Virus record (IMG/VR): IMGVR_UViG_3300042448_000298
Location: 1 to 20,310 of that record
Direction: 5' to 3' (one strand)
From: a virus
Length of the DNA stretch: 20,310 nucleotides
Positions 4,517-19,813 of the stretch are shown piece by piece. Below the pieces are notes generated by a model. That model was not told where the DNA came from. It made no database searches and saw only the letters and a list, made by a program, of their open reading frames with translations. How positions within the stretch are numbered: the first letter of the stretch is position 1; the number at the start of each line of letters is the position of its first letter. The position numbers were made by a program, and so were the translations under genes.

Positions 4517-4797
4517 TTCTTCTTCTCTTTAGCCATTGATTCAACAAAGCTAACTGGTATTTCAGCAGCCTTAGCCTGTACAGCTGACATGTCTTCAGCA
4601 TTGCTTAACTGTTCAACTCGCTCAAGCATATATAAAGCGTCATCAAACGCCAATCGCTTTGCAGCTGCAGCATTCTTCATCTTGTCAGCAGATAACGCAT
4701 CTTCAGGATTAGATACGATAGGATCCTTAAGTACACCTATCAACTCATCTATAGCCTTCATTGCGGCTTCTAATATTTCTTGTCGTTTACCAGACAT
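4513..4797 (-). CDS. Small helical protein upstream of TerL, possible small terminase subunit
   Basis: A 94-aa protein predicted to be mainly alpha-helical (MSGKRQEILEAAMKAIDELI, then an Ala/Lys-rich helix and DDALYMLERVEQL) with a basic KEKKK tail. I do not recognise a specific domain. Position immediately upstream of TerL, ATGA coupling to it, size and helical character would suit a small terminase subunit, but this is inference from context. Its 5' end overlaps the stop of the tandem GroES-like gene by 28 bases; starting at Met13 instead would remove the overlap. Confidence 0.7.
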   Translation of the reverse strand: MSGKRQEILEAAMKAIDELIGVLKDPIVSNPEDALSADKMKNAAAAKRLAFDDALYMLERVEQLSNAEDMSAVQAKAAEIPVSFVESMAKEKKK

Positions 4798-5781: not shown

Positions 5782-5805
5782 TTTTATTTAATTTAATTGT
5801 TGTCG

Positions 5806-5813
5806 CAAATATA
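5806..5813 (-). promoter_or_regulatory. Promoter -7 box TATATTTG for the packaging operon
   Basis: On the minus strand this reads TATATTTG followed by C, matching the Bacteroidota -7 consensus TAnnTTTG. No TTTG lies at the expected 19-21 bases upstream. It lies 24 bases before the ATG at 5781, downstream of the terminator of the preceding unit. Confidence 0.6.
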
Positions 5814-5828
5814 CACTTTTTCGTGACA

Positions 5829-5857
5829 AAATAAAAAACGGAGGCCATTGACCTCCG
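5829..5857 (-). terminator. Rho-independent terminator after the 143-aa gene
   Basis: On the minus strand a 6-bp perfect stem CGGAGG/CCTCCG (5857-5852 with 5844-5839), 7-base loop, is followed by TTTTTTATTTT. It lies 23 bases past the stop at 5881 and upstream of the packaging-operon promoter, so it separates two transcription units. Confidence 0.8.
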
Positions 5858-5880
5858 AATTATTTAAGTAATGAAATACT

Positions 5881-6312
5881 TTATACGTTGTATACTCTTA
5901 TCTCGATGAACTGATTTGATAATGCTCCGTCAGACAAAGATCCGCTGATATATGTAGCAATGCTAAACGTATTAGATGATGTGTTGTTTACCTTTACACT
6001 TCTTGTAACATCCGCTTCACCTGTTATTAATACAGGATATCCTTGGAATGCATTTGCAAGTGTTCCTACATAAATACCTGTAGTTGTTCTTGTCCAAACA
6101 ATATTACCTATTGTGTTTGGGCCTAAAACCACAGCTATTGGAGCGTTAGTTGATGTTTGAGTTAAAACAGCTCTATATATAGAAACTCCTCCATTCAGTT
6201 CTGCAACATCTTCAGGTGATACGTTTTTCGTAGCTCCGGTGTCTCCATCGGAAGCCAGTAACTTATCGTTAACCTTTAATGCAGATGTGCCGTAATTATT
6301 AATATTTGCCAT
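5881..6312 (-). CDS. Probable virion appendage protein
   Basis: A 143-aa protein with no signal peptide, rich in Ser/Thr/Asn/Val and apparently all beta. The N-terminus (ANINNYGTSALKVNDKLLAS, then DGDTGATKNVSPEDVAEL) resembles the short N-terminal attachment regions of phage fibre or decoration proteins; the rest is a possible beta-sandwich. No named family recognised. It forms its own transcription unit, with a TATCTTTG box ending four bases before the ATG and a terminator just after the stop. It lies between a fibre cluster and the packaging genes, which supports a structural role by context only. Confidence 0.72.
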   Translation of the reverse strand: MANINNYGTSALKVNDKLLASDGDTGATKNVSPEDVAELNGGVSIYRAVLTQTSTNAPIAVVLGPNTIGNIVWTRTTTGIYVGTLANAFQGYPVLITGEADVTRSVKVNNTSSNTFSIATYISGSLSDGALSNQFIEIRVYNV

Positions 6313-6316
6313 AGTG

Positions 6317-6324
6317 CAAAGATA
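6317..6324 (-). promoter_or_regulatory. Promoter box TATCTTTG, four bases before ATG
   Basis: Minus strand TATCTTTG, then CACT, then the ATG at 6312. It matches the Bacteroidota -7 consensus TAnnTTTG. At this spacing the transcript would be expected to begin at or next to the start codon. Confidence 0.7.
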
Positions 6325-6329
6325 GTAAA

Positions 6330-6575
6330 TTAGTTAATTGGTGGAAAAGGCGGAGTTTCAACATCGAATGTTTCAGGTGTACCCAAAACTACATTGAGAG
6401 AATCATCGTATCTTATATACCAAAAAATAGGTGTGTTTAAACTTGCCTCTTGATATTCTACCCAATTCTGTGTTACGTCATCATGTGAAACAGGAATTCC
6501 GTAATAAGTATCACATGATTCCCTTGCATCAATAGCTGCCTGTTCTGTCGTGTATTTATATCCTGTAACTTGCAT
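6330..6575 (-). CDS. Small fibre-associated protein with C-terminal PPFPP
   Basis: An 81-aa protein with an acidic and aromatic core (QNWVEYQEASL, FWYIRYDDSL) and the ending ETPPFPPIN. The 85-aa protein at 9952-10209 ends PAPPFPPLD, and each gene lies directly downstream of a fibre gene and overlaps its stop. The recurring pairing suggests a fibre-assembly helper or a small fibre-capping subunit; this is inference. The start overlaps the fibre stop by one base (TAATG). Confidence 0.72.
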   Translation of the reverse strand: MQVTGYKYTTEQAAIDARESCDTYYGIPVSHDDVTQNWVEYQEASLNTPIFWYIRYDDSLNVVLGTPETFDVETPPFPPIN

Positions 6576-7429
6576 TAGTAAATTGTATAGAATGTGTTGA
6601 TATTACCTTCAATGCCTGTCTTATCAGATGTTTTATCTGTAGAATAGATTATAGTTTCTTGGAAATTACCTTTTAAATAAAAACCTCCAGGATCAAATCC
6701 AAGTGCAAAATAAGTGCTATTCGTTCCTGCTAAACTTGCTTTAGTATCCTGTGCATCTAAAGAACCATTGATATAATATTTGATATTATTTGTTCCTGTT
6801 TGATTAAAGTTAGTAAATAACTTTTGAGAATTTAGCATAGCTGCTGTTCCAATGATATTAGTCCCTTGATCAATATATAACTGCATTTTGTTATCTGTTC
6901 CTAATTGACCAAAGAAATAACCTCCATCACCATTATATGATTTACTTGCTAATGGCGGATTACTATTTCCACTGATTATTTGAGCAGTATAAAAACAAGA
7001 AGTTAAACTCGATGCGTGTAAAATAGTATTGTCTGTTACCGCTAAGTATTGAGATGTACCATTAAAAGAAAGAGCAGGTTTAGAGTTGTCTTTTAATACT
7101 GTTCCAGATGTAACAATTCTCGGTTGATTAGAAGCTGTGGAATTCTCCATGTTTTTACCATTTCCACTTTGGTCATACCATTTAACTACAAATCCGTTGT
7201 TAGCACCTACGAATGTTGTCAATGCTGATTCGTCAAGAACATTGCTACCATCGTATCCTATATCTTGCTCTGTGTTATCCGAACTCCTACGCACACGAAT
7301 CAATGGCCCTGTATATGCAGTTGCCAATCTACGTGCAGCAGAATAAGCCACAGCGGCTCCTGTATATGTGTCAAGAATTCCTGTGAATGCAGGAACTCCT
7401 GGCTGCACTAAATATGGATTGATTATCAT
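6575..7429 (-). CDS. Fibre/receptor-binding protein with AbfB-like and LamG-like domains
   Basis: A 284-aa likely surface-binding virion protein. Residues ~15-115 match the pattern found in arabinofuranosidase-B (GH54)-like regions of many phage and secreted proteins: LDTYTGAAVAYSAARRL, then GPLIRVRRSSDNTEQDIGYD, then FVVKWYDQSGNG and NQPRIVTSG. Residues ~120-284 resemble a concanavalin/LamG-type jelly roll (PALSFNGTSQYLAV, YYINGSLDAQ, GNFQETIIYS). Whether it cuts sugars or only binds them cannot be seen; a full-length GH54 enzyme is longer. It overlaps the upstream fibre gene by four bases and the downstream PPFPP gene by one. Confidence 0.8.
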   Translation of the reverse strand: MIINPYLVQPGVPAFTGILDTYTGAAVAYSAARRLATAYTGPLIRVRRSSDNTEQDIGYDGSNVLDESALTTFVGANNGFVVKWYDQSGNGKNMENSTASNQPRIVTSGTVLKDNSKPALSFNGTSQYLAVTDNTILHASSLTSCFYTAQIISGNSNPPLASKSYNGDGGYFFGQLGTDNKMQLYIDQGTNIIGTAAMLNSQKLFTNFNQTGTNNIKYYINGSLDAQDTKASLAGTNSTYFALGFDPGGFYLKGNFQETIIYSTDKTSDKTGIEGNINTFYTIY

Positions 7430-8208
7430 GCTCTTGTTCCTATGATGGTAACTTTCAAACCTTTGGCTGTTCCATCACCTATCTGATCAATGTCAATAGT
7501 TATCTCAGCATCATCTGCCAGTGCAGTGTCAGATACAACCGCTGGTGTTGCCGCCGTTGTAGATGTCTTTTCAGTATTGTCAATTGTTAGCTTTGTTGAT
7601 AGTATAGTTGTACCACCTTCATTGATGTCAACAGTGAAGATACTACCTGATGCTTGAGCAGTTGAAAGAGATGCACGAACGGCAGTAACTGTCATTGCAT
7701 AAGGCATTCTGAAAGTAACCTTTGCAGTACCTGTAGTAAGTGCAGTAGTTTCATCTGATGCAGCCACCTGGATCTCAGTAGGTAACGATGCCCAATTAGT
7801 TACTCCAGATCCAGAGTTTGTTAAAAATTGACCAGCAGAACCTACAAATCCAGGGAAAACAAAAGATGTAGTTTGAGCCATAAATTGAGGAGCTCTTAGC
7901 TGAACATAATCTGAACCAGCATCAAAGTCTTCATAAAGTTTTATGGAACCAGAATTTGTAGTGCCTTGATTAAATACAACTTCACCTCCGCTAAATGTAA
8001 GTGATCTTCCAGACATTGTAACAATCCTGTTCGCGTCTAACGTACCGTCACTGTTATATATATTAGTATCAGCTGCTGAAGCCTCTGCTATAATATCGTC
8101 AATAGTATATGTTTCCTGATAGCTATTGCTTAGAGATGATCTATTCTCTGGAGTTGGAACATCTGGTGAAATACCAATAAACTTGGTTCCTGAAGGAATT
8201 GCTGGCAT
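7426..8208 (-). CDS. Fibre-type virion protein
   Basis: A 260-aa protein. The N-terminal part (IPSGTKFIGISPDVPTPENR) and the middle section GSAGQFLTNSGSGVTNWASL are typical of phage fibre linkers. The C-terminal ~115 residues, beginning EIQVAASDETTALTTGTAKV and ending LKVTIIGTRA, form a beta-rich domain widely seen in phage virion proteins. It is first in the fibre transcription unit, behind a TATCTTTG box and a 16-base leader, and overlaps the next fibre gene by four bases. The exact place in the virion is unknown. Confidence 0.8.
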   Translation of the reverse strand: MPAIPSGTKFIGISPDVPTPENRSSLSNSYQETYTIDDIIAEASAADTNIYNSDGTLDANRIVTMSGRSLTFSGGEVVFNQGTTNSGSIKLYEDFDAGSDYVQLRAPQFMAQTTSFVFPGFVGSAGQFLTNSGSGVTNWASLPTEIQVAASDETTALTTGTAKVTFRMPYAMTVTAVRASLSTAQASGSIFTVDINEGGTTILSTKLTIDNTEKTSTTAATPAVVSDTALADDAEITIDIDQIGDGTAKGLKVTIIGTRA

Positions 8209-8224
8209 AATTTATTATTTTACG

Positions 8225-8232
8225 CAAAGATA
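8225..8232 (-). promoter_or_regulatory. Promoter box TATCTTTG for the fibre unit
   Basis: Minus strand TATCTTTGC, identical to the boxes at 6317, 9933, 12517 and 15910. It starts eight bases after the stop of the 45-aa basic gene (8241) and leaves a 16-base leader before the ATG at 8208. Confidence 0.68.
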
Positions 8233-8240
8233 GCTAAAAA

Positions 8241-8378
8241 TTACCTACCCTGAGATCGGTATGCCTTCTTGTAGTTCTTACTAGATTTAATACTGCTAGT
8301 CTTGGTTTTGGAATGAACGCCAGGACGGCTGACCTTCTTTTTGGCTAATACCTTTGTTGTGCTGTCTTTCTTACTCAT
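8241..8378 (-). CDS. Very small, highly basic protein
   Basis: A 45-aa protein rich in Lys, Ser and Arg; it contains KKKVSRPGVHSKTKTSS, then SSKNYKKAYRSQGR. I recognise this RPGVHxKTKxS...NYKKAYRxQGR type as a recurrent tiny protein in Bacteroidota phage structural regions; its function is not known to me. The charge suggests binding to nucleic acid or to an acidic virion surface. It overlaps the endolysin stop by four bases (ATGA) and is last in the lysis unit. Confidence 0.78.
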   Translation of the reverse strand: MSKKDSTTKVLAKKKVSRPGVHSKTKTSSIKSSKNYKKAYRSQGR

Positions 8379-8944
8379 GGTCTGAATGTTTTAACATAGT
8401 CCGCTAGACGATTCGTCCAGCCTTTAAGAAATTTATTATTCTTAGTTCCAGGACGACCGATATATTCAAAGAATCTCTTTCTCTCTGCAACAAGAGCATC
8501 AAACATCTTACGTGGCTCAATACTATTTGCCGCTGCTATAGTCTTGTTTCCAAGTATGCCGTCCTTGTCTACAGCTACTCCGCAATTTATAATTGCCTGC
8601 TGCAAAGACTTAACGGCCTGACTCTTTCCACTTCCCCAAGCCATTCCTGTGACAAATATTGCAACATTCTGTGACTTGAACTCATCTCCTCTAACTGTAT
8701 TCCAATATAGCGTCTTGAATACATTCCACCAATCCTCAGAGTTCATAGCGAAAAAACGAGCGTCATTGTTCTTTCCATACATACTCTTCCATACAGCATA
8801 CGTAATACCTACGTTTGTATGCCATCCTGTAAGACCTTTGTGCGGTGTTGGACATGGAGTTTTTGAAGCACTATCTGCTTTGTCTCTTGATAGTCCACCT
8901 TCCCAGCGTTTTGTGAACTCTACGTATTTTTCTATTAAACTCAT
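8375..8944 (-). CDS. Endolysin, GH108-type N-acetylmuramidase
   Basis: A 189-aa peptidoglycan hydrolase that degrades the cell wall at the end of infection. The N-terminal GH108 domain carries the diagnostic WEGG at residues 14-17 with catalytic Glu15, then GWHTNVGITYAVW and the aromatic helix EDWWNVFKTLYWN. The C-terminal part (AIINCGVAVDKDGILGNKTI, then ALVAERKRFFEYI) matches the peptidoglycan-binding domain usually fused in this family. No signal peptide is present, so a holin is needed, and holin-like genes lie immediately upstream. It overlaps the upstream membrane-protein gene by four bases. Confidence 0.93.
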   Translation of the reverse strand: MSLIEKYVEFTKRWEGGLSRDKADSASKTPCPTPHKGLTGWHTNVGITYAVWKSMYGKNNDARFFAMNSEDWWNVFKTLYWNTVRGDEFKSQNVAIFVTGMAWGSGKSQAVKSLQQAIINCGVAVDKDGILGNKTIAAANSIEPRKMFDALVAERKRFFEYIGRPGTKNNKFLKGWTNRLADYVKTFRP

Positions 8945-9477
8945 AACTTAGGATACAATTTGATTACTACATAAATAAAAGCCAAAACAACTAACAGCCA
9001 AAGTAGATTCTTTACAAAACTTACTGGGCTATTTTTCCTCTTTGTCTTTTGCTCATGCTTTACCTGCTTTGTTTTATGCTTAAGTGCTTGCTTTAACCTT
9101 GCACTTTGTAGCTCATATAGATCTCTAATATGGCTCAATGAATCTCTATATTTAAGTCGCTCTTGTCTTGACATTGGTACATATATCTTCTCAGTGACAA
9201 GATAAGGAATGCTGTCAATAACGTGGCGCGTAACAGTGAGAGTATTTGTCTTTTCGTCGTATACAGTATCAGTCTCATATATATACTTGTATAAAGTATC
9301 TGGAGTTATAACAGCACCTTTTGCTATAGCTTTCTTTATATGCTTATCTGCCGACTTCAAATGATGAGCCGCAGTGCATCTTGACATAAAAAACATTACG
9401 GATGACAAAAATGACAGCCATACAATAGCTGTTATAAACATCCTAACAAAATTTATTTTATGATTTTCTTGCTCCAT
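8941..9477 (-). CDS. Two-membrane-segment lysis protein, possibly spanin-like
   Basis: I start at the ATG at 9477 (178 aa). A longer frame to 9525 adds only a Cys/Arg-rich stretch buried in the upstream gene. It has a membrane segment near the N-terminus (MFITAIVWLSFLSSVMFFM), a following Cys, then a ~120-residue charged, partly coiled-coil region (SRQERLKYRDSLSHIRDLYE) and a second membrane segment near the C-terminus (LLWLLVVLAFIYVVIKLY). Its place between a holin-like gene and the endolysin argues for a role in lysis, such as spanning the envelope. A true Rz-type inner spanin has only one membrane segment, so the name is uncertain. Confidence 0.72.
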   Translation of the reverse strand: MEQENHKINFVRMFITAIVWLSFLSSVMFFMSRCTAAHHLKSADKHIKKAIAKGAVITPDTLYKYIYETDTVYDEKTNTLTVTRHVIDSIPYLVTEKIYVPMSRQERLKYRDSLSHIRDLYELQSARLKQALKHKTKQVKHEQKTKRKNSPVSFVKNLLWLLVVLAFIYVVIKLYPKL

Positions 9478-9686
9478 GCATCTGTTATTTTTATTCCGGT
9501 AGCAACGACAACAAGCGTTACCCACACATCGAACTGAAGTCCTCTTCTGCAGAAATCAAATAATGCCATGAATATGACAACTATCCACGCAGAAAACATA
9601 GTAAGTGATGTCCTTGACCACTTACCATCTTTAGTTAATGTATCATGTAAAACGTCAGATATAAATGACGTTATTAAGACAAGCAT
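9453..9686 (-). CDS. Putative holin
   Basis: A 77-aa membrane protein with two hydrophobic segments (MFSAWIVVIFMALFDF and VWVTLVVVATGIKI) separated by a short charged turn, and a basic tail WSKKIIK. The DGKWSRTSLTMFSAW stretch matches a pattern I associate with small membrane proteins beside Bacteroidota phage endolysins. Size, topology and position support a holin that releases the endolysin. It overlaps the upstream gene by 13 bases and the downstream membrane gene by 25. Confidence 0.75.
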   Translation of the reverse strand: MLVLITSFISDVLHDTLTKDGKWSRTSLTMFSAWIVVIFMALFDFCRRGLQFDVWVTLVVVATGIKITDAWSKKIIK

Positions 9687-9928
9687 ATCTTTATTCTATC
9701 AGGTAGAACAGCAACAAGCTGCTCATTATAATCGTAATGCTTCTTACTTAATGGATGATTGAAAGCCAAATTTGACTTATCCTCAAGGCAGTCATATAGC
9801 TTGTCCTCTAGTCTTCCTATCTTTTCCTCAGATATAGTCAGTCTGTTATTTAGCCAAAAACAAGCAAAAATAACCAACACTGATATTCCGTGCTTCTTTG
9901 CTCCTTCAATTATTGTGATTGGATCCAT
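9674..9928 (-). CDS. Single-span membrane protein of the lysis unit, BhlA/UviB-like
   Basis: An 84-aa protein with one membrane segment (GISVLVIFACFWLNN), then a charged helix (ISEEKIGRLEDKLYDCLEDK) and a polar tail. The layout resembles the BhlA/UviB family (one membrane helix plus a short coiled coil), often annotated holin-like, but could also be a spanin component. It is the first gene of the lysis unit; a TATCTTTG box ends four bases before its ATG. Confidence 0.72.
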   Translation of the reverse strand: MDPITIIEGAKKHGISVLVIFACFWLNNRLTISEEKIGRLEDKLYDCLEDKSNLAFNHPLSKKHYDYNEQLVAVLPDRIKICLS

Positions 9929-9932
9929 GTGG

Positions 9933-9940
9933 CAAAGATA
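9933..9940 (-). promoter_or_regulatory. Promoter box TATCTTTG for the lysis unit
   Basis: Minus strand TATCTTTG, then CCAC, then the ATG at 9928. The same box and the same four-base gap occur at 6317, and both sit just past the stop of a PPFPP gene. Confidence 0.7.
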
Positions 9941-9951
9941 AGTATTTTTAC

Positions 9952-10209
9952 TTAATCAAGCGGTGGAAAAGGCGGAGCAGGTTTAGGATTATACGGAATC
10001 AAATCCAAGTCCTTTACCCATGCAAAAGTAGGATTAGTGCAGTATTCCATCTCTTCTACAGATATTACCCAGTTATCATCTGCATCTTGAATAGGATTAA
10101 AGTAAGAATCTGCTGTGTACTGCTGTCCTACTAATTCGTCTTTTTGTACCTCTGTCAATAGTCCTACGTATGTAGACCATTGTGATGATGTTATGTCTGT
10201 TAGTTTCAT
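9952..10209 (-). CDS. Small fibre-associated protein with C-terminal PPFPP
   Basis: An 85-aa acidic protein (DADDNWVISVEEMEYCTNPT) ending KPAPPFPPLD, like the protein at 6330-6575, although the rest of the two sequences has diverged. Both follow a fibre gene and overlap its stop, here by four bases (ATGA). A fibre-assembly or fibre-tip role is inferred. It is the last gene of its unit; the lysis promoter follows within 12 bases. Confidence 0.74.
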   Translation of the reverse strand: MKLTDITSSQWSTYVGLLTEVQKDELVGQQYTADSYFNPIQDADDNWVISVEEMEYCTNPTFAWVKDLDLIPYNPKPAPPFPPLD

Positions 10210-11798
10210 CGTCCTAATGTTGAATTAAATGTTAATACTCGTGATCTCAATGTTTGAGCCTGTGCTGTTGTAAGACCTTCTCCCATACAAGCGAATGAAT
10301 GTCTCCTCGCCGTGAAGAATGTAAAACTTGTACTATCAGTACAAACTGCAAGACCTCCGACATTTGAATTAGGATTAGCAAAAGAATCTGAATAGGAATA
10401 ACTATTTGCATCTTTTACTGCATAGAATGTAGTGGTATTACTTGGCTCTCTTGTACCACCGAAGAATCCTACTGTAGTTGTATTGGAAGCTGAATAAAGG
10501 TTAGTAGCTAACATTGATACATAGAAAGAACCTGCATAACTTGACATCACTTGGAACCTTGTATTTGTGCCTGATTGATTAGCTGCTAAATCCGAACCAT
10601 TATCTGCCGATGTGTTATTGCAATAAATAAACGCGGAACCACCCGTAGATGAAGTAAGCTGAACAGACGGATTAAATTTAGTATCATAGTAACCATTAGT
10701 TCCGTTTCCTTTAATTCCATTTGAATCATGCGTAAGTCCTCCGCTGAATACCAGTCTAAATGCCGCATCTGAATCTACAGGATTTTTAAGATTCCATTTA
10801 TGTGTAGTTGATGTTCCACCAACAAATGGATAGATAGCTTTCATCTTAGTCCAAAGACTATCTGCTTTAAGTCCTATAACAAGGTTATTGACAGCAGTTG
10901 CTTGAGTAGTATCCGTAATCACCGCAGCATTTAAGAATGCCTGTGCATCTGCATCTGAAACGATAGGAACACCTACCTGTCTTCCTAAAGTTGTTTGGAA
11001 TGTCTGTACTGCCGTGTAGAAGTTTGCTGCTTCGGTGTCAGTTAATCCATCTCCGATTGATGAAAATGCTATTTCTCTATTTGAATAATAATTAGGCATG
11101 GCTTGATTAGAATCATACCAAGCTCCTAAAAAAATTGAATTACCAGCAGATGCAGATGATGCAGATGATGTTGAAATTGAAGAACCATTTTTATATGCTT
11201 CCATATCTGAAGAACTGCGTCTCGAAATAATATAATGACCTCTTGAATCTGTATTGCTTGGATTCATTCTAGTGGCAAAAACAGTATTATGATTTAATAA
11301 TGTTCCATTACTCCATCTTGTCAATAGTATTGATTCTGCACTTGCAGTAACTTGACTTGTACCCATATCTACATAAAGACCATCTGTATTTGTTCTGTTA
11401 TATATAGATATATGAGAATTGTTTTGAGTTAAATTACTTGATGGAATTAATTTAGTGTCAGCATAACCATTGCTTCCATTTGGTAATGCTCCTGTACTTG
11501 AGTGTGTCCATCCACCATTAAATACTAAACGAAATGCAGCATCCAAATCACGCGCATCCATAAAGTTATATTTGTGCTTAGCTGCTGTACCACCTACAAA
11601 CGGATACAATGCCTTCATCTTTGAAGTAAGTCCGTAGGTAGTCAAATCACTTTCAAGAGTATTTAACGCACCTAAGATAGTAGTATCAGTTTCTCCCGTT
11701 GCTGTTATCCAAGATGTTGTTAATGGGCCATAAGAAGGTCCGCTTGGCCCGCTACTCCTCCTTACTAAAGATGAATATCCTAATCCGTATCCAGGCAT
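10206..11798 (-). CDS. Large fibre protein with two tandem repeat units
   Basis: A 530-aa protein. After a short Gly/Ser-rich start, two units of roughly 240 residues repeat the same landmarks. Unit one has KMKALYPFVGGT, DAAFRLVFNGG, NGSNGYADTKLIPSSNL and IGDGLTDTEAANF, ending TFQTTLGR. Unit two has KMKAIYPFVGGT, DAAFRLVFSGG, NGTNGYYDTKFNPSVQL and MGEGLTTAQAQTL, ending TFNSTLGR. The content (NGxNGY-DTK, then strands, then 'FFGGxRE') suggests LamG/ConA-like carbohydrate-binding folds, so it is likely a receptor-binding fibre with two lectin-like heads per chain. The start overlaps the upstream stop by one base (TAATG). Confidence 0.8.
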   Translation of the reverse strand: MPGYGLGYSSLVRRSSGPSGPSYGPLTTSWITATGETDTTILGALNTLESDLTTYGLTSKMKALYPFVGGTAAKHKYNFMDARDLDAAFRLVFNGGWTHSSTGALPNGSNGYADTKLIPSSNLTQNNSHISIYNRTNTDGLYVDMGTSQVTASAESILLTRWSNGTLLNHNTVFATRMNPSNTDSRGHYIISRRSSSDMEAYKNGSSISTSSASSASAGNSIFLGAWYDSNQAMPNYYSNREIAFSSIGDGLTDTEAANFYTAVQTFQTTLGRQVGVPIVSDADAQAFLNAAVITDTTQATAVNNLVIGLKADSLWTKMKAIYPFVGGTSTTHKWNLKNPVDSDAAFRLVFSGGLTHDSNGIKGNGTNGYYDTKFNPSVQLTSSTGGSAFIYCNNTSADNGSDLAANQSGTNTRFQVMSSYAGSFYVSMLATNLYSASNTTTVGFFGGTREPSNTTTFYAVKDANSYSYSDSFANPNSNVGGLAVCTDSTSFTFFTARRHSFACMGEGLTTAQAQTLRSRVLTFNSTLGR

Positions 11799-12070
11799 TA
11801 CTGAAGAACTATAGAAACAGATCCACTAACTAAATCAACAGCAGAGAATGGTTTGTTTATATCCAATGGAGTAATTATAGCTCCAGCCTTTACAGCTGTT
11901 GCAGTGTCCTGAATATATGAAGACTTAACGTCAACACCGTCAACCTTGATAGCGTTGAATATAGTGTCTTCCAATACAACAATCATCAAGTGATTTGCAA
12001 CTTTCTCCGTAGCTGTGTTTACGATAAACGTTCCTGCTTTCGGTACTAATATTTCATTCCAATGTGTCAT
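11798..12070 (-). CDS. Small probable virion protein upstream of the large fibre
   Basis: A 90-aa beta-rich protein (WNEILVPKAGTFIVNTATEK, then IFNAIKVDGVDVKSSYI, IITPLDINKPFSAVDLVSGS). No signal peptide. I have the impression of similar small proteins beside fibres in Bacteroidota phages, but know no function; a fibre-base or decoration role is possible. It is directly coupled to the 530-aa fibre (TAATG). Confidence 0.7.
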   Translation of the reverse strand: MTHWNEILVPKAGTFIVNTATEKVANHLMIVVLEDTIFNAIKVDGVDVKSSYIQDTATAVKAGAIITPLDINKPFSAVDLVSGSVSIVLQ

Positions 12071-12075
12071 CTTAT

Positions 12076-12321
12076 TTACCTTTTAAGTGCGCCTCCACGA
12101 GCGCGATTCTCTTTCCTATGTTCTTTAACTATCTTTCCGTTCTTGTGGCTCGCATCTATAGGACTTCCCTTAGGTATACCTAACTCTTTCCTAGCCTTAT
12201 TTGCCTCAGCCCTCTTTCTCTTGGCTTCAGGTTTTGCAGCAGCCTTCTTAGATGTCTCCTGGTGAACCTTTCGGGCGTCAGGATTATCACGGTAATACTT
12301 AGCTGTTCTCCCCAGTGCCAT
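12076..12321 (-). CDS. Small, very basic phage protein
   Basis: An 81-aa protein with strong positive charge and helical content: MALGRTAKYYRDNPDARKVH, then KPEAKRKRAEANKARKELG, PIDASHKNGKIVKEHRKENR and ARGGALKR. This GRTAKYYRxNP...DxSH...NRARGG pattern recurs in small proteins of many unrelated phages. I know no established function; DNA binding is plausible from the composition. It overlaps the upstream gene by 23 bases. Confidence 0.8.
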   Translation of the reverse strand: MALGRTAKYYRDNPDARKVHQETSKKAAAKPEAKRKRAEANKARKELGIPKGSPIDASHKNGKIVKEHRKENRARGGALKR

Positions 12322-12508
12322 AGAATACTTTGTTAATTAACAAATCAGGATTGTTCAAGTTCTCCTTTCTTTTCTGACAAGGAACACAAGGCTCTGCAGG
12401 ACTTCCATTCTTTATAGCGTTAGCTATATAGTGTACACCCGTAGTCTTTAATACTGATTCAATAGTATCTCCAACGCCCTTATGCCTCTTAATCAATCTG
12501 ATTTGCAT
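12299..12508 (-). CDS. Small protein with a CxxC motif
   Basis: A 69-aa protein starting at the ATG at 12508 (MQIRLIKRHKGVGDTIESVL). An in-frame upstream ATG at 12562 would run through the promoter, so I reject it. Residues ~40-55 hold CVPCQKRKENLN, similar to the Cys-rich xCxCxKRxxxLN motif of small Bacteroidota phage proteins that may bind a metal; only two cysteines are present here. Role unknown. It is the first gene of the unit that runs to the large fibre, and it diverges from the winged-helix gene. Confidence 0.75.
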   Translation of the reverse strand: MQIRLIKRHKGVGDTIESVLKTTGVHYIANAIKNGSPAEPCVPCQKRKENLNNPDLLINKVFYGTGENS

Positions 12509-12520
12509 ATCAGATGCAAA
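12502..12520. promoter_or_regulatory. Candidate operator: 7-bp perfect inverted repeat between divergent genes
   Basis: TTTGCAT (12502-12508) and ATGCAAA (12514-12520) form a perfect inverted repeat with a 5-base spacer. The left arm contains the -33-like TTTG of the plus-strand promoter and the ATG of the minus gene; the right arm contains the TTTG end of the minus-strand box. A dimeric regulator bound here would block both directions. The divergent winged-helix protein is an obvious candidate, but this is inference; part of the symmetry follows from the promoter boxes themselves. Confidence 0.45.
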
Positions 12521-12524
12521 GATA
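12517..12524 (-). promoter_or_regulatory. Promoter box TATCTTTG for the 12508-9952 unit
   Basis: Minus strand TATCTTTGC, with eight bases between the box and the ATG at 12508. It is identical to four other boxes in the window. Confidence 0.66.
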
Positions 12525-12538
12525 GTAATTTTACCTTT

Positions 12539-13024: not shown

Positions 13025-13185
13025 CGCTTTCTTCCGAATTTCATTTTAGGCATGTCCTCAAATTGACGCTTGATCATCATCTCGTCAATCTCCTCCTTCA
13101 TATCCTTCATCTTATCCTGCTGTTTCTTCATTCGAACAAGCTTCTCGATTCCGGACTCTACTGTGTAAAATGGTTTATTTTTCAT
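13021..13185 (-). CDS. Small Met/Lys-rich helical protein
   Basis: A 54-aa protein (MKNKPFYTVESGIEKLVRMK, then DKMKDMKEEIDEMMIKRQ, ending MPKMKFGRKR), almost entirely a charged helix or coiled coil with a basic tail. Family and function not recognised. Support: a TAAATTTG box ends five bases before its ATG, the frame is intact, and it exactly fills the space between its neighbours. Its stop TAA overlaps the plus-strand gene's stop in the palindrome TTAA (13021-13024). Confidence 0.72.
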   Translation of the reverse strand: MKNKPFYTVESGIEKLVRMKKQQDKMKDMKEEIDEMMIKRQFEDMPKMKFGRKR

Positions 13186-13190
13186 AATTA

Positions 13191-13198
13191 CAAATTTA
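13191..13198 (-). promoter_or_regulatory. Promoter box TAAATTTG for the 54-aa gene
   Basis: Minus strand TAAATTTG, then TAATT, then the ATG at 13185 (five-base gap). The box overlaps the last bases and stop of the upstream T9SS-like gene. Confidence 0.58.
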
Positions 13199-14551: not shown

Positions 14552-14552
14552 C

Positions 14553-15905
14553 TTATCTGCTTATTTCTTCCCAGTCCATAGACGCATATATTAACTCAGT
14601 AGCTGTGCTTGCGCTAGCAACTAAAGTTAATTCAAATGGAGTACTAGTAAATCTATTTCTTTCCAATTGAAATTTAAATAACGCCTCTTTTAATATGTCT
14701 ACATTAGATGAGCCTTGAGCTGTAGATGTTATAAATCCAGAAGCTAAGGTCCGTCCTCCTGAAAAACTAGTCCCTGTAATATTATAGTCTACACTAGAGT
14801 CAACTCCTGCTGATATCCATGATCCTCCTGCTGTAGTTCCACTAGCAATTACTTTCCAATTATATATACCAGTCCCTTCACCCATAATTGATAATGCTGT
14901 CAATATAACAACAGCATCTAAATAGCTTCCATTTAATCTTATGCTAACCACAGGATAGTAGGTCCCTGCTACTGCTAAATTTGCTGGAGCAGTTATTGGA
15001 GTACCGATAGCCTGCTGTAATCCTCTAAGTTCATATCCACCCTCAGATATAACAGTAGAACATACCTGCTTTAATGTACTAGCACTTGCTGTAACTCCTG
15101 TATTTGTAATCTCATGTCTCAAAGGTAGGGATGCAGTGGTAATATAAGTAGAGGTAATTAAGTTAGCATGATTGAATCTATGACACAATATAAAGTTACC
15201 ATCAATAATGAACCCAAGTCTTACGGTGCCCTCACCTAGCCACTCAATATCCATGAATAATATCTGAGCCTTAGTTATGTCTAAAGTGACACCTGATGGC
15301 CCAGATCCATCCATTTTGTCTACATTCCAAGAAGATTGATTTACAACAGTCTCTGTAACTGCACCTGTGACTAGGCTTCTTTCTACAAAACTTAATGTGC
15401 TGTTGTTAAGTTGAATATATATCCCATTGTCAACACCAAAGTACCCAACCCTCTGTCTAAGATTAGTTTTAGCAGGAGCCATTATAAAAGTATTAAATAC
15501 TAGCAATGACTTACCTGGCTGATAAGAAAACACCTTAGTTGTCTCTCTTAGAACCTGAGACCCGCTTGTAGTGTTTACATTTAGATTTACAAGCCCTTCG
15601 TTCGCACTAAATACAGCAGCTCCGCCACTAGCAGCTGAGGTATTCCATAGACCATTGTCTTTATACCTATGTGAAGAATCAAATAGTGTTAAAGGGTTTG
15701 AGACTCTTACCCTACCAAAAGCATCTGTAATCATGTTAGAATTATTAAATATGGAGTCATAGATAGATACCCACGTACCGTCACCTCTTAAAAAAGTCGT
15801 GTCGTCAGTAGTGCCGCTACCAAGTGTAGTAGGATCTAAGTAATTATTCTTAGGAAGCTTAATTATCTTTCCAAGAACATCTATTAGCGGACGAACTTTT
15901 ATCAT
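14553..15905 (-). CDS. Fibre or spike-type virion structural protein
   Basis: A 450-aa protein. Residues 1-50 form a fibre linker (RPLIDVLGKIIKLPKNNYLD, then DDTTFLRGDGTWV). From about residue 60 it carries a module widespread in phage virion proteins: DAFGRVRVSNPLTLFDSSHR, then NTTSGSQVLRETTKVFSYQP, GYFGVDNGIYIQ and LFMDIEWLGEGTVRLGFI. The C-terminal part is beta-rich and ends LIYASMDWEEISR. No enzyme motif is visible. A TATCTTTG box ends four bases before its ATG. It is probably co-transcribed with the T9SS-like gene, which begins one base after its stop. Confidence 0.83.
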   Translation of the reverse strand: MIKVRPLIDVLGKIIKLPKNNYLDPTTLGSGTTDDTTFLRGDGTWVSIYDSIFNNSNMITDAFGRVRVSNPLTLFDSSHRYKDNGLWNTSAASGGAAVFSANEGLVNLNVNTTSGSQVLRETTKVFSYQPGKSLLVFNTFIMAPAKTNLRQRVGYFGVDNGIYIQLNNSTLSFVERSLVTGAVTETVVNQSSWNVDKMDGSGPSGVTLDITKAQILFMDIEWLGEGTVRLGFIIDGNFILCHRFNHANLITSTYITTASLPLRHEITNTGVTASASTLKQVCSTVISEGGYELRGLQQAIGTPITAPANLAVAGTYYPVVSIRLNGSYLDAVVILTALSIMGEGTGIYNWKVIASGTTAGGSWISAGVDSSVDYNITGTSFSGGRTLASGFITSTAQGSSNVDILKEALFKFQLERNRFTSTPFELTLVASASTATELIYASMDWEEISR

Positions 15906-15909
15906 TTCG

Positions 15910-15917
15910 CAAAGATA
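15910..15917 (-). promoter_or_regulatory. Promoter box TATCTTTG, four bases before ATG
   Basis: Minus strand TATCTTTG, then CGAA, then the ATG at 15905. It lies just past the stop of the 98-aa gene (15922). Confidence 0.7.
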
Positions 15918-15921
15918 CTAA

Positions 15922-16218
15922 TTACTTAGGATAATCGCCTGTCCACCACTCGTACTCCGAGTTGCCTGTCTTAAACTTAATATAGTGAACGTCATCTGAG
16001 TTTATCTCTTCAAGTATGTCAGTAACAACAGTTGTAAGCCAATAGTCCTGATCAGAATAAGATCTTGCACTAACGGAACCAACAAGCATAGAATATCCTA
16101 CAGTTGGTTTATAGTCCACAACTTTCTTGAACGTACCATCTTCATTCCACTCGATAGCTTGACTTCTGCCTCCTGTTTCTCCGGCACCATCTCTTGTACG
16201 TCTTAAATGAAATGCCAT
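15922..16218 (-). CDS. Hypothetical protein at the end of the chaperonin unit
   Basis: A 98-aa soluble protein: a basic start (MAFHLRRTRDGAGETGGRSQ), then VGYSMLVGSVSARSYSDQDY, TDILEEI and a strand region YIKFKTGNSEYEWWTG. The VGSVSARSYSxQDYWLTT core reminds me of a recurrent small protein in Bacteroidota phages, function unknown. It begins two bases after the groES stop, so it is probably co-expressed with the chaperonins, which might point to a folding client or accessory factor; that is speculative. Confidence 0.75.
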   Translation of the reverse strand: MAFHLRRTRDGAGETGGRSQAIEWNEDGTFKKVVDYKPTVGYSMLVGSVSARSYSDQDYWLTTVVTDILEEINSDDVHYIKFKTGNSEYEWWTGDYPK

Positions 16219-16220
16219 GT

Positions 16221-16478
16221 CTATAGTACTGCTACAACGTCTCTTTCCTGAACAATGGTAAGCATCTCTCCGTCAATCTTTACGTCGAACGCATGCACCT
16301 TGTCAAAGAAAATACTATCTCCCTCCTTGATATGCTCGACAAGTGTACCAGGAGTCACAACGACTCCTATCTGGTACCTCATCTCTGACTCCTCAGCCTT
16401 AGACATAAGAAGACCACCGCTAGTCTTCACCTCCTCGTTAGATCTCTTGATCAGCAAATATTTATTTATTGCCCTCAT
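16221..16478 (-). CDS. groES: Phage co-chaperonin GroES (Cpn10)
   Basis: An 85-aa lid protein for the GroEL chamber, slightly short of the ~95 aa of bacterial GroES. It has the N-terminal strand INKYLLIKRS, a mobile loop at about residues 15-34 (EEVKTSGGLLMSKAEESEMR) with LLM where GroES has its GroEL-contacting hydrophobic triplet, then YQIGVVVTPG, the roof/hairpin region, KEGDSIFF and a final IVQERDVVAVL. All landmarks of a working co-chaperonin are present. Its start lies inside the end of groEL (17-base overlap), so the order is groEL then groES, the reverse of the usual bacterial operon. Confidence 0.93.
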   Translation of the reverse strand: MRAINKYLLIKRSNEEVKTSGGLLMSKAEESEMRYQIGVVVTPGTLVEHIKEGDSIFFDKVHAFDVKIDGEMLTIVQERDVVAVL

Positions 16479-18054
16479 CTTGTCTCATATTAGTTATAAC
16501 AACCTCTGTTGATAGTATAGTAGTGGCTACAGATACAGCGTTCTTAAGTGCACTCTTCGTTACCTTAGACGGATCTATCACTCCCATCTTCATCATGTCT
16601 CCATACTTGTCGTTCTTAACGTCATACCCAAACCCATCTGTATCCTTATCTATGATGGGCTGAGCCACACTAACCTTATCTAGCCCTGCATTCTCAACAA
16701 TGCGACTGAAAGGAGCCGTAAGTGCTGTCTTCATAATGTCAACAGCTGCCTGATAGTTGATATCCTCAGCGTTGTCTTTGATACGTTGCGACGCATTGAT
16801 AAGAGCGATACCACCTCCAGGAAGTATACCCTCCTCGATAGCTGCAGCTACAGCTCGCACCGCATCGTCAACCCTATCATACTTCTCCTTCTGCTCGATG
16901 TCTGAATTGGCTCCTACATAGATAACGCCAACCCCTCCGTCGATATTGGCAATACGCTCCTGCAAGAACTCTCGCTCATACTGTATCTTAGCCTCAGAAT
17001 GCTTGTTCTTAAGAGTCTCAAGATGGTCATTGATATCACTCTCCTCAATACTATCATGTCTCATGATGATAGTCCTGTCTTTAGATACTACAACCTTGGC
17101 AGCTCTTCCTAGCCCATCGAAGTCAATAAGTGACAAATCGTCACCTGTTGCATCTGAATACAACCTTGCTCCCAAAACGATAGACAGGTCTTTCAACAGA
17201 TCAGCCTTACGCCATCCCATGCTTGGAGGCTGTATATGGCATGCCTTAATATTTCTCTTAGCAACATTCAAATTTAACGCGTTTAACGCGTTCGCGCTCA
17301 AATTTCCAATAATAAGTATAGGCCGCCCCTGCTTAATGACTGGCATCAGAGCGTTCTCTATAGACTGCAAGTTGTTTATCTCTACATCAGATAGCAATAC
17401 ATACGGATTGTCCAACACGCACTCCTCAGTCTCCTCATTTGTGACAAAATACTTGCTCGACCAACCCCTGTCGATCTTCATCCCGTGAATAATGTCGATA
17501 TACGTCACCGGAGTAGCTGAGTTCTCCACAGTAACAACATTAACCTGCTTGAATGCATCAGCAATAAGGTCACCAAGCTCCTTGTCGTTGTTTGCCGAGA
17601 TAGCGGCAACGTCATTCAGCAACTTCTTGCTTACCTTCTTCGACAACTTCTTGTCCAAAAACTCAATAATGCTGTCAGTGATCTTGTTCATGTGACGAAT
17701 AACCTCCGTCCTGTTGTGCTCCTCCTCGATATACTCGTCCGCAGCATCTATCAACGCCTCCGTCAGTACAACGCTAGTTGTCGTTCCATCGCCAGCAACT
17801 GTAGATGTCCTGTCAGATGCCTGTCTTACCAGCTGAACAGCTAAGTTCTCCACCGGATCGAACAGATTTATAGTCCTTGCGACAGTTATTCCGTCCTTCG
17901 TGACAGTAATACCACCTACATGATGCTCTGACTCCAATAAAACTGTGTTTCCTCGCGGACCTAACGTACTTCCTACCGCCTTTGCAATCTTATGAATGCC
18001 ATTCCTTAACTTATTTTGACCTTGTTGATCAAAAAATAACTGTTTTACTATCAT
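16462..18054 (-). CDS. groEL: Phage chaperonin GroEL (Cpn60)
   Basis: A 530-aa ATP-dependent folding chamber, nearly full length compared with ~545 aa in bacteria. Nucleotide-site motifs are intact: GPRG (32-35), TKDG (52-55), GDGTTT (88-93), the catalytic Asp in RVDDA (D397, matching E. coli D398), GGG (413-415) and IDPSKVTKSAL with D494. The hinge HGMKIDRG and IDGGVGVIYVGA are kept. The apical domain has diverged most: DRGWSSKYF replaces the DRGYLSPYF of E. coli, while the hydrophobic helix NALNALNLNVAKRN is kept. The C-terminus ends TNMRQDEGNK without the Gly-Met tail. It probably folds phage capsid or fibre proteins with the co-encoded GroES. A weak promoter-like TAAATTCG lies 18 bases upstream. 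Confidence 0.97.
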   Translation of the reverse strand: MIVKQLFFDQQGQNKLRNGIHKIAKAVGSTLGPRGNTVLLESEHHVGGITVTKDGITVARTINLFDPVENLAVQLVRQASDRTSTVAGDGTTTSVVLTEALIDAADEYIEEEHNRTEVIRHMNKITDSIIEFLDKKLSKKVSKKLLNDVAAISANNDKELGDLIADAFKQVNVVTVENSATPVTYIDIIHGMKIDRGWSSKYFVTNEETEECVLDNPYVLLSDVEINNLQSIENALMPVIKQGRPILIIGNLSANALNALNLNVAKRNIKACHIQPPSMGWRKADLLKDLSIVLGARLYSDATGDDLSLIDFDGLGRAAKVVVSKDRTIIMRHDSIEESDINDHLETLKNKHSEAKIQYEREFLQERIANIDGGVGVIYVGANSDIEQKEKYDRVDDAVRAVAAAIEEGILPGGGIALINASQRIKDNAEDINYQAAVDIMKTALTAPFSRIVENAGLDKVSVAQPIIDKDTDGFGYDVKNDKYGDMMKMGVIDPSKVTKSALKNAVSVATTILSTEVVITNMRQDEGNK

Positions 18055-18072
18055 TTTAATTGAATTTAGGTG

Positions 18073-18080
18073 CGAATTTA
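18073..18080 (-). promoter_or_regulatory. Weak promoter-like box TAAATTCG before groEL
   Basis: Minus strand TAAATTCG followed by C, one mismatch from TAnnTTTG, 18 bases before the groEL ATG and just past the stop of the secreted gene. It may give groEL its own transcript; otherwise groEL would depend on read-through from 18502. Confidence 0.35.
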
Positions 18081-18084
18081 CTAA

Positions 18085-18468
18085 TTATTGTTCAGTTATC
18101 ACAATAATTTCTCCAGAAGTGTCCTGAATTGTTACAGTATACTCAATTCCATCTTTAAAATGGTGGAAGTATACGAATCCATTGTCGTCAATTATCTTGA
18201 ATAACTCCTCTATAGTGTATTTTCTGAACTTGATGCCATTCTCAGTTAATATTCTATGGTACTCAGACAACATCATCTCCATCTCTGTGTCGAAAATAAT
18301 AGCGTCCTCAACAAACTCTACATTATACACGTATGTCTTGAACGTCTCTACGTATACTTTTACGTCACCATCTGGCTTAAAGCCTACAGATGCGTAGTCA
18401 TTCATCCCTCTCTGTGCTACTGATGTCATCCCGATCATCAAACTTGCTGCTAAAAAAATTGTTCTCAT
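18085..18468 (-). CDS. Small secreted protein of unknown function
   Basis: A 127-aa protein with a clear Sec signal peptide (MRTIFLAASLMIGMTSVA, cut before QRGM; the A|Q site is typical of Bacteroidota). No lipobox is seen. The mature ~109 residues are mixed alpha/beta and acidic (EMEMMLSEYHRILTENGIKF, then YTIEELFKIIDDNGFVYFHH, ending in strands YTVTIQDTSGEIIVIT). I recognise no family. It has its own TACATTTG promoter box with a 26-base leader and lies directly upstream of groEL. An envelope or periplasm role such as superinfection exclusion is conceivable but unsupported. Confidence 0.75.
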   Translation of the reverse strand: MRTIFLAASLMIGMTSVAQRGMNDYASVGFKPDGDVKVYVETFKTYVYNVEFVEDAIIFDTEMEMMLSEYHRILTENGIKFRKYTIEELFKIIDDNGFVYFHHFKDGIEYTVTIQDTSGEIIVITEQ

Positions 18469-18494
18469 GGCGTTTAAATTTTAAAGTTATAAAG

Positions 18495-18502
18495 CAAATG
18501 TA
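18495..18502 (-). promoter_or_regulatory. Promoter box TACATTTG for the secreted gene and possibly groEL
   Basis: Minus strand TACATTTGC, matching TAnnTTTG, just downstream of the terminator of the preceding unit and 26 bases before the ATG at 18468. Confidence 0.6.
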
Positions 18503-18544
18503 TATAAAACAAAAACCGCCTGCCAACAAATTGTGACAAGCGGT
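18503..18544 (-). terminator. Rho-independent terminator after the 180-aa gene
   Basis: On the minus strand ACCGCTTG (18544-18537) pairs with CAGGCGGT (18522-18515), 8 bp with one G-T wobble and a 14-base loop, followed by TTTTTGTTTTATA. It lies 21 bases after the stop at 18566. Confidence 0.8.
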
Positions 18545-18565
18545 CGATATCAATGATGAACGGTA

Positions 18566-19108
18566 TTAAGGCTTTTTCCTCTTGTCAATAACAAGCGGAG
18601 TACCTGTCAATACCCACCCTTTACCTGGCTGGTATTTACTATATACAACGTTCTTGAAAGTCTTGTTGCCCTTCTCGTCAATAATAGTCTGCATTCTCAT
18701 TGCAGTCCTCTCTTTAGGCGCAGCCTCCTGCTTTTTAGCTGGAGCCTCTGTAGGCTTAGTTGTAGTAGTTGTAGGTTTAGTAGTTGTAGTGGTTGTAGCT
18801 TTAGTTCCACCAGTAATCTTCTTACCTGAATTAGGTGCAAGCTTTATATATTCAGGTTGATATACATCACTTCCTCCTTGAACAGCCTTCGTGCTTCTAT
18901 TTAGATCAACTCTATATCCTGGTTTACTGAAAGACGAAGTATCAGCTGGAGTCATCTTCTGAATACTACCTGGCTTTATTCCGCCTTGTAAATTAAAAGG
19001 TCTGTATGTAGACGGAACTGCTTTCTCACCCGGCTTAAGTCCATCACCTGGACCCTTCTTAGGAGTGATGTTACCGTTAGCTCTTTGTGTAATTGGTTTG
19101 TTTGGCAT
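18566..19108 (-). CDS. Thr/Lys/Pro-rich protein with a poly-threonine linker
   Basis: A 180-aa protein of low complexity in the middle: residues ~103-125 are Thr runs broken by Lys-Pro, followed by an Ala/Lys/Glu-Pro segment. The N-terminal ~95 residues are extended and rich in Gly, Pro and Lys (ITPKKGPGDGLKPGEKAVPS; PEYIKLAPNSGKK). A compact C-terminal module follows (RMQTIIDEKGNKTFKNVVYS, then YQPGKGWVLTG). No signal peptide. The layout suggests two short binding modules joined by a flexible tether, perhaps in the virion; no family recognised. It lies six bases after the 62-aa gene and is followed by a terminator. Confidence 0.75.
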   Translation of the reverse strand: MPNKPITQRANGNITPKKGPGDGLKPGEKAVPSTYRPFNLQGGIKPGSIQKMTPADTSSFSKPGYRVDLNRSTKAVQGGSDVYQPEYIKLAPNSGKKITGGTKATTTTTTKPTTTTTKPTEAPAKKQEAAPKERTAMRMQTIIDEKGNKTFKNVVYSKYQPGKGWVLTGTPLVIDKRKKP

Positions 19109-19114
19109 ATCTAT

Positions 19115-19303
19115 TTATTTATAACGCTTCACCTCTTTAGATCTTCCGATAACAGATCCAGGTGTGCCTTTAGTTTTTACTACAGTCTTCTTTACAAGTC
19201 CGCCCTTGCCATAAACAGTCTTCTTCTTCTGCATAGCTCCGTACTCCTTCCCGTCTACCTCCATGGTGACAGATTGCTTCTTAGTCTTAACTACTTTTCT
19301 CAT
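19115..19303 (-). CDS. Small basic protein
   Basis: A 62-aa Lys-rich protein (MRKVVKTKKQSVTMEVDGKE, then YGKGGLVKKTVVKTKGTPGS), probably beta-stranded. The 'YGKGGxVKK' stretch is common in small basic proteins of Bacteroidota phages; function unknown. It is the first gene of its unit, and a TACATTTG box ends four bases before the ATG. Confidence 0.74.
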   Translation of the reverse strand: MRKVVKTKKQSVTMEVDGKEYGAMQKKKTVYGKGGLVKKTVVKTKGTPGSVIGRSKEVKRYK

Positions 19304-19307
19304 GATG

Positions 19308-19315
19308 CAAATGTA
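19308..19315 (-). promoter_or_regulatory. Promoter box TACATTTG, four bases before ATG
   Basis: Minus strand TACATTTG, then CATC, then the ATG at 19303. It fits the Bacteroidota -7 consensus TAnnTTTG. Confidence 0.62.
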
Positions 19316-19352
19316 ATGATTTTTATGTTACATATACACGAAGTGTTGGCCC

Positions 19353-19468
19353 TGACGGATAAAATGCTCATTTCCAAGTACATTGACGGAACGCTGACGG
19401 ATTCCTGACGGTTTGAAAATTGTAACTCGCTCATTATGAGCAATCTTGACGGTTTGACGAATTGACCC
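19353..19468 (+). repeat. Left array of TGACGG repeats
   Basis: TGACGG occurs at 19353, 19384, 19395, 19406 and 19447, with degenerate copies TGACGA at 19455 and TGACCC at 19463. Neighbouring starts are 11 bases apart for 19384/19395/19406 and 8 bases apart for 19447/19455/19463. All point the same way, toward the AT-rich core on their right. The pattern suggests binding sites for a repeat-recognising protein. Confidence 0.75.
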
Positions 19469-19559
19469 CTACTTATTTTATATATTTATATATTTTGCCT
19501 ATTTACCTATTCTATTTAACATAATATTTCTTTTTTTCTACGATTTCAATAGAACTTTT
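19469..19559. other. AT-rich core between opposed repeat arrays
   Basis: About 90 bases made almost only of A and T (TTTTATATATTTATATATTT and a poly-T run near 19530), with no gene. It lies between inverted TGACGG and CCGTCA arrays, as a DNA-unwinding element would in a replication origin. No gene overlaps it. Confidence 0.5.
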
Positions 19560-19635
19560 CCGTCAAACCGTCAATGTTGTTGATTATCAGCACTTTAACC
19601 GTCAATAAACCGTCAGGATTTAAAAAGTTTCGTCA
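19560..19635 (-). repeat. Right array of CCGTCA repeats (TGACGG on the minus strand)
   Basis: CCGTCA occurs at 19560, 19568, 19599 and 19610, with TCGTCA at 19630. Spacings are 8 bases for the inner pair and 11 for the outer pair, mirroring the left array. Further single copies, GCGTCA at 19661 and TCGTCA at 19731, fall at the end of and inside the 45-aa gene. Confidence 0.75.
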
Positions 19636-19652
19636 AGATTGTTGATTATCAG
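19569..19652 (+). repeat. 22-bp direct repeat ending TTGTTGATTATCAG, two copies
   Basis: CGTCAA-NN-TTGTTGATTATCAG occurs at 19569-19590 and 19631-19652, 62 bases apart, differing only at two bases. Each contains the palindrome TGATTATCA. A shorter copy, TGATTATCAG, lies at 20300-20309, at the very end of the window. Confidence 0.8.
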
Positions 19653-19663
19653 TTAGTTATGCG

Positions 19664-19801
19664 TCAGCCAACTAAAAATATAATTTTAATAATTAGCAAG
19701 TTCAAATGAAACTCGTAATATGGATCCCAGTCGTCAGGATCGTAGTACTCAAAACCGACATTCAAACCTGTCGGTATCATGTTGTGTATCTCTATAGTCA
19801 T
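19664..19801 (-). CDS. Very small hypothetical protein
   Basis: A 45-aa protein: MTIEIHNMIPTGLNVGFEYY, then DPDDWDPYYEFHLNLLIIKI and IFLVG. Acidic and aromatic with a hydrophobic strand at the end; short proteins ending 'YxEFxxNLLxxxxxF' occur in Bacteroidota phages and their hosts, without known function. Support comes mainly from the TAACTTTG box that ends four bases before the ATG. The stop lies within a GCGTCA copy, so the gene abuts the repeat array. Confidence 0.62.
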   Translation of the reverse strand: MTIEIHNMIPTGLNVGFEYYDPDDWDPYYEFHLNLLIIKIIFLVG

Positions 19802-19805
19802 ACCA

Positions 19806-19813
19806 CAAAGTTA
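19806..19813 (-). promoter_or_regulatory. Promoter box TAACTTTG, four bases before ATG
   Basis: Minus strand TAACTTTG, then TGGT, then the ATG at 19801, the same layout as the promoters at 6317, 9933, 15910 and 19308. Confidence 0.58.

Follow-up and report, generated by a model that had tools for sequence, protein, structure and literature searches.

TAnnTTTG promoter boxes at a fixed distance from the start codon predict leaderless mRNAs in a phage and its near relatives

The TAnnTTTG box is the known −7 element of sigma-A in Bacteroidota. In F. johnsoniae, 4 or 5 nt separate the box from the start site at probable promoters, the −33 TTTG is hardly evident genome-wide and 87% of the leaders are longer than 10 nt (PMC6847099). 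The sigma-A box of F. psychrophilum spans −12 to −5 and leaderless mRNAs make up 5.5% (PMC9723704), while 5′ UTRs shorter than 10 nt account for 3.7% in B. theta (PMC7366714). Among Bacteroidota transcripts, leaderless mRNAs are known but in the minority, from 3.7% to at most 13%. Leaders are usual in these hosts, with a median of 32 nt in B. theta; in the phage locus described here, in contrast, six of ten boxes abut an ATG.

The window, i.e. the whole stretch of DNA analysed, is an entire IMG/VR record of 20,310 bases (labelled G000), and its minus strand carries nearly all genes (Table 1). The two GroES-like genes and the single GroEL gene (4770-5342; 16221-18054) belong to one phage. At the end of the record, positions 19841-20310 form a low-complexity stretch without a clear gene, with frames reading HVCVHTCVHTGAHIHMHTH...; oddly composed ORFs occur in two relatives (G019, G020) too. 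The relatives of the terminase comprise Flavobacterium elemo phages, Cellulophaga phages, the spring-water podovirus MW202828 (68%) and hundreds of IMG/VR contigs. The named hosts among them are Bacteroidota. The minus strand is presumably transcribed late, given that it carries structural and packaging genes.

Table 1. Boxes and genes of the window; distances run from the end of the box to the ATG.
Feature	Positions	Strand	Remarks
TATCTTTG box	6317..6324	minus	4 nt before ATG 6312; predicted +1 = 6312 (leaderless)
143-aa gene	5881..6312	minus	behind predicted leaderless promoter; 17 nt past upstream stop; N-terminus conserved (MANINNY/MGKINNY)
TATCTTTG box	9933..9940	minus	4 nt before ATG 9928 (84-aa gene heading endolysin cluster)
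TAAATTTG box	13191..13198	minus	5 nt before ATG 13185 (54-aa gene)
TATCTTTG box	15910..15917	minus	4 nt before ATG 15905 (450-aa virion structural protein)
TACATTTG box	19308..19315	minus	4 nt before ATG 19303 (62-aa ORF)
TAACTTTG box	19806..19813	minus	4 nt before ATG 19801 (45-aa ORF)
TATCTTTG box	12517..12524	minus	8 nt before ATG 12508; predicted leader ~2-4 nt
TAATTTTA box, one mismatch	12526..12533	plus	5 nt before ATG 12539; weak
TATATTTG box	5806..5813	minus	24 nt before ATG 5781; leadered, past terminator-like hairpin 5857-5839
TATCTTTG box	8225..8232	minus	16 nt before ATG 8208; leadered
TACATTTG box	18495..18502	minus	26 nt before ATG 18468; leadered, past terminator-like hairpin 18545-18514
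Portal	2-1588	minus	
Homing endonuclease-like gene	1581-2309	minus	phrog_314; between terminase and portal
Large terminase (TerL)	2309-4516	minus	
GroES-like gene 1	4770-5342	minus	just upstream of terminase
Endolysin	8375-8944	minus	
Virion structural protein	14553-15905	minus	450 aa; phrog_1645
GroES-like gene 2	16221-16478	minus	
GroEL	16462-18054	minus	

Ten perfect TAnnTTTG boxes lie where the original prediction had placed them, each with the spacing that it gave. C follows eight of the ten and five read TATCTTTGC. At 13191..13198, the TAA stop codon of the upstream gene sits inside the box. The motif itself is only mildly enriched in the window (31 occurrences versus 21 ± 4.4 expected). 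The abutment of boxes and ATGs is real and far from chance: when a pair was counted if the ATG opens a frame of at least 45 codons, six pairs at 4-5 nt were observed, whereas 300 dinucleotide shuffles of the window gave 0.05 on average and never more than 2. The placement of the boxes is therefore non-random.

Histograms of the box-to-ATG distance were made without gene annotation. In the window, a distance of 4 nt occurs five times, 5 nt and 8 nt once each, followed by 16, 24 and 26 nt, and the bins at 0-3, 6-7 and 9-11 nt are empty. With each family counted once, 14 near-clade records yield 12 families at 4 nt and 6 at 5 nt, versus 0-2 per distance at 0-3 and 6-11 nt. Across ~3.85 Mb of related phage loci (overlaps merged, families deduplicated), there are 44 families at 4 nt and 11 at 5 nt. 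The bins at 0-3 and 6-11 nt average ~3.6 families, a wide leadered mode extends from 12 to 32 nt, and no other single distance reaches the count at 4 nt, which forms a peak one base wide. The reversed motif, used as a control, gives 0-1 in each set. The sharp peak at 4-5 nt that was expected from the original prediction is thus present. An undeduplicated histogram of TerL relatives with a peak at 20 nt had seemed to refute this claim. It pointed the opposite way because one in-gene motif of the portal recurs in 31 loci, and deduplication abolished the peak.

Comparison of orthologues reveals how narrowly the spacing is kept. The box of the gene starting at 6312 ends 4 nt before the ATG in each of the five other near-clade records with an orthologue. 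Relative to G001, this promoter is identical at 6/6 fixed letters but at 0/2 free box letters, 0/4 spacer positions and 16/40 upstream positions. Its distant homologue in an elemo phage is without box. The orthologue of the 9928 gene in G016 carries TATTTTTG at 4 nt behind unrelated upstream DNA, and that of the 19801 gene in G017 carries TATCTTTG at 4 nt with differing upstream DNA. For the 13185 gene, the window and its orthologues show distances of 5, 5, 4, 4 and 4 nt, and 6 nt in L103. The 15905 gene retains distance 4 in L183, L184 and L103 despite upstream indels; its promoter is absent from G001-type relatives and has therefore been gained or lost. Overall, the six fixed letters and the 4-5 nt are kept across orthologues, while the two free letters, the spacer and the upstream 40 nt can fall to near-random identity. 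The start codons themselves are supported since the N-termini of orthologues align starting at the methionine. Two starts are less well grounded, as an orthologue of the 19303 ORF was sought in the relatives and none was found, and the 19801 ORF has only 45 aa. Leadered families, on the other hand, drift: the spacing of the 5781 gene varies from 16 to 24 nt among relatives and that of another family from 21 to 26 nt.

Two further arrangements deserve mention. The 12508 gene (12299-12524) shows exactly 8 nt in every near-clade record that has the gene, and TGAT or TAAT usually precedes its ATG. Furthermore, L248:3680-3700 shares a near-identical upstream region and box with L254:6791 and L257 (G020:39317), although the genes that follow differ and the junction lies precisely at the ATG; it looks as if genes had been swapped at the leaderless start.

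Since 4-5 nt separate box and start site in flavobacteria, a box ending 4 nt before the ATG would put +1 on the A of the ATG. The interval from box to +1 is thus taken from the literature; the boxes, their fixed spacing, the need for the whole box and for ATG, the conservation and the gap sizes are read directly from the DNA. The distance peak, the conservation among orthologues and the match to the flavobacterial spacing agree with the original prediction of leaderless transcripts, and together they strongly support leaderless mRNAs, with predicted 5′ ends, for six minus-strand genes.

The gaps between genes suggest why two arrangements coexist. Leaderless starts mostly lie 10-23 nt past the upstream stop and leadered ones, with one exception, at least 29 nt (Mann-Whitney p=4e-5). 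We consider it very probable that the boxes are host sigma-A −7 elements, that six genes have leaderless mRNAs and that the arrangement serves compaction, with probable read-through from upstream. The boxes would be recognised as −7 elements by the host primary sigma factor (sigma-ABfr type), and RNA polymerase would start on the A of the ATG, or within one base, yielding a leaderless mRNA at the six minus-strand genes. The Bacteroidota ribosome, without Shine-Dalgarno pairing, would then initiate on the 5′ AUG. With 8 nt of box and 4 nt of spacer, a promoter would fit the 10-23 nt gaps of the dense structural gene cluster, which would be too short for a leadered one; such compaction is the simplest reading of the gap sizes. 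In longer gaps, often past a terminator, the same promoter type would produce ordinary leaders (16-26 nt from box to ATG). As upstream transcripts probably read through, the leaderless promoters would act as internal boosters. That related viruses keep the spacing suggests selection for promoters that can be accommodated in ~10-23 bases between genes.

The same short gaps, and the lack of a reported terminator-like hairpin just upstream of most of these genes, make read-through possible. The promoters could then be real and the protein could nevertheless be made mostly from the upstream polycistronic mRNA, the leaderless transcript being minor or non-productive. We regard this as unlikely: the exact spacing is retained where upstream DNA has been replaced (the 9928 gene in the window versus G016), and ATG is used exclusively, both of which suggest selection on the leaderless product. 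A more far-reaching proposal, which we put forward as speculative, is that much of the clade's structural module has come to be expressed from leaderless mRNAs. Each ATG would be served by read-through as well as by a leaderless mRNA of its own, which might favour these genes when initiation-factor-dependent translation declines in infection, and the box-ATG unit would serve as a cassette joint for gene exchange at the ATG.

Alternatively, the box might be a translation-initiation element on a longer transcript, such as a site for the ribosome or S1, and no promoter at all. Ribosome-binding elements typically stand at a fixed spacing from the ATG, and many of the genes, being 10-23 nt past an upstream stop, could be co-transcribed. 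Which letters are needed at distance 4 argues for the promoter. In the seven nearest records, the full TA..TTTG gives 23 matches at this distance whereas every single-mismatch box gives 0-4, and TTTG shows no enrichment once TA is replaced by another dinucleotide. The start codon is equally constrained in these records, with 23 ATG and no GTG; candidate TTG starts at distance 4 were rejected as they look internal or antisense to conserved genes. Leaderless translation prefers AUG. The need for the whole box and for ATG therefore fits a sigma-A −7 element better than a ribosome-binding TTTG, and it fits this preference for AUG. The starts thus have the AUG, not GUG or UUG, that marks leaderless mRNAs, behind the TAnnTTTG −7 box that marks sigma-ABfr promoters. 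In addition, the identical box stands 16-26 nt from the ATG at other genes. None of the 4-5 nt spacers between box and ATG contains GGAG as a Shine-Dalgarno motif, and A occupies −1 at 1/15 leaderless versus 15/27 leadered sites, so that the leaderless spacer is without A-rich leader context. A purely translational role of the box is very improbable.

Taking the boxes as promoters, which polymerase reads them has to be considered. TTTG occurs in the −33 zone of 1/15 leaderless and 6/27 leadered sites; the −33 element expected of a sigma-ABfr promoter is thus largely missing. This had prompted the suggestion that the phage might have a sigma factor or polymerase specificity of its own, and the preference for the TATCTTTG variant at leaderless sites (10/15 versus 7/27, p=0.02) points in the same direction. 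On the other hand, the box is identical to the host sigma-A consensus and the −33 is weak at leadered sites as well. Its absence is not decisive, since an element that is hardly evident in F. johnsoniae too is auxiliary rather than defining (PMC6847099). A search for sigma-70 region 2 or 4 domains in nine records, mostly fragments (the window, seven near-clade records and MW202828), detected its controls and gave no match; a search for a T7-type single-subunit RNA polymerase gave none either, but its controls were silent as well. The suggestion was not borne out: phage-specific specificity is not needed, and we hold a phage-encoded factor that uses these boxes to be highly improbable. Finally, an AT-rich motif might meet start codons by chance, and the mild excess of boxes as such might lend colour to this; the placement statistics, the distance histograms and the conservation among orthologues refute it, and its probability is negligible.

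One item of the original prediction stood only in part. The one-mismatch box 5 nt before the plus-strand ATG 12539 is present, but as a leaderless promoter it is weak and we rejected it as an example. The TAnnTTTA class is not enriched at 4-5 nt (0 and 3 matches versus 2.2 per background distance), which leaves the item unsupported on its own. Moreover, relatives either lack a box at the orthologous gene or have a perfect, leadered one at 17-25 nt. In G021-G029, a perfect TAATTTTG lies 20 nt before the orthologous ATG, thus 12526-12533 may represent a promoter that has decayed or been shortened. The boxes at 12517-12524 and 12526-12533 are divergent, with a single base between them. In three distant relatives (L214, L210, L216), two opposed boxes at the plus-strand gene form a perfect palindrome, TATCTTTGCAAAGATA. 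The 12539 gene is the one clear plus-strand gene of the window, with weak, below cut-off likeness to PadR/HxlR winged-helix regulators.

How unusual is this use of leaderless starts? The ratio of starts at 4-5 nt to those at 12-32 nt is 2.0 in the window, 1.2 in the window plus its two nearest relatives and 0.5-0.6 in G001, G018 and G020; it drops to 0.04 in the next clade, and host-type genomes range from 0 to 0.33. The leaderless share is at background in phi13:2 and the GroEL-62% clade, hence the arrangement does not extend to the group in its entirety. The podovirus MW202828, Elemovirus and Cellulophaga phi13:2 resemble this phage in their homologous TerL and portal and in having GroEL and/or GroES, but they contain only 0-2 box-ATG pairs at 4-5 nt in 50-61 kb; the Flavobacterium elemo phage has 2 candidate sites in the 50 kb covered. 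A Sphingobacteriales MAG (800 kb) displays a clear excess at distance 4, as do most sampled genomes of this order. The window differs from the Sphingobacteriales sample only at the borderline (p=0.054), and from the other two host samples and distant phages with p = 0.0004-0.001; its share of 6/10 compares with 5.5% in F. psychrophilum (binomial 5e-6). As most sampled genomes of this order share the distance-4 excess, the feature is of host type; the phage clade makes heavier use of it and did not invent it.

No description of leaderless mRNAs in phages of Bacteroidota came up in our literature search, which had few subscription papers in its scope. The kind is already known, and what appears undescribed in the searchable papers is its heavy, conserved use in structural phage genes. 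Leaderless initiation by Bacteroidota ribosomes, which lack Shine-Dalgarno pairing, has hardly been studied, and these conserved phage genes with predicted leaderless mRNAs offer simple test substrates. They also provide a start-codon-precise annotation rule for Bacteroidota phages (box, 4 nt, ATG) and illustrate the space saved by merging a promoter with a start codon.

Compared with known systems, the sites resemble sigma-ABfr promoters of Bacteroidota in their −7 box, the 4-5 nt to the predicted start and the weak −33 as in F. johnsoniae. They share with chromosomal leaderless mRNAs of Bacteroidota a predicted 5′ end at the AUG, but here phage structural genes are concerned and the share lies above that of flavobacteria. 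Among phages, the lambda cI transcript is leaderless. Phage transcripts are indeed often leaderless (PMC5312081), and the likeness lies in a start codon at the 5′ end, predicted in the present case. In contrast to lambda cI, the candidate promoters described here are serial and internal, lie within a structural gene cluster and carry the host sigma-A box.
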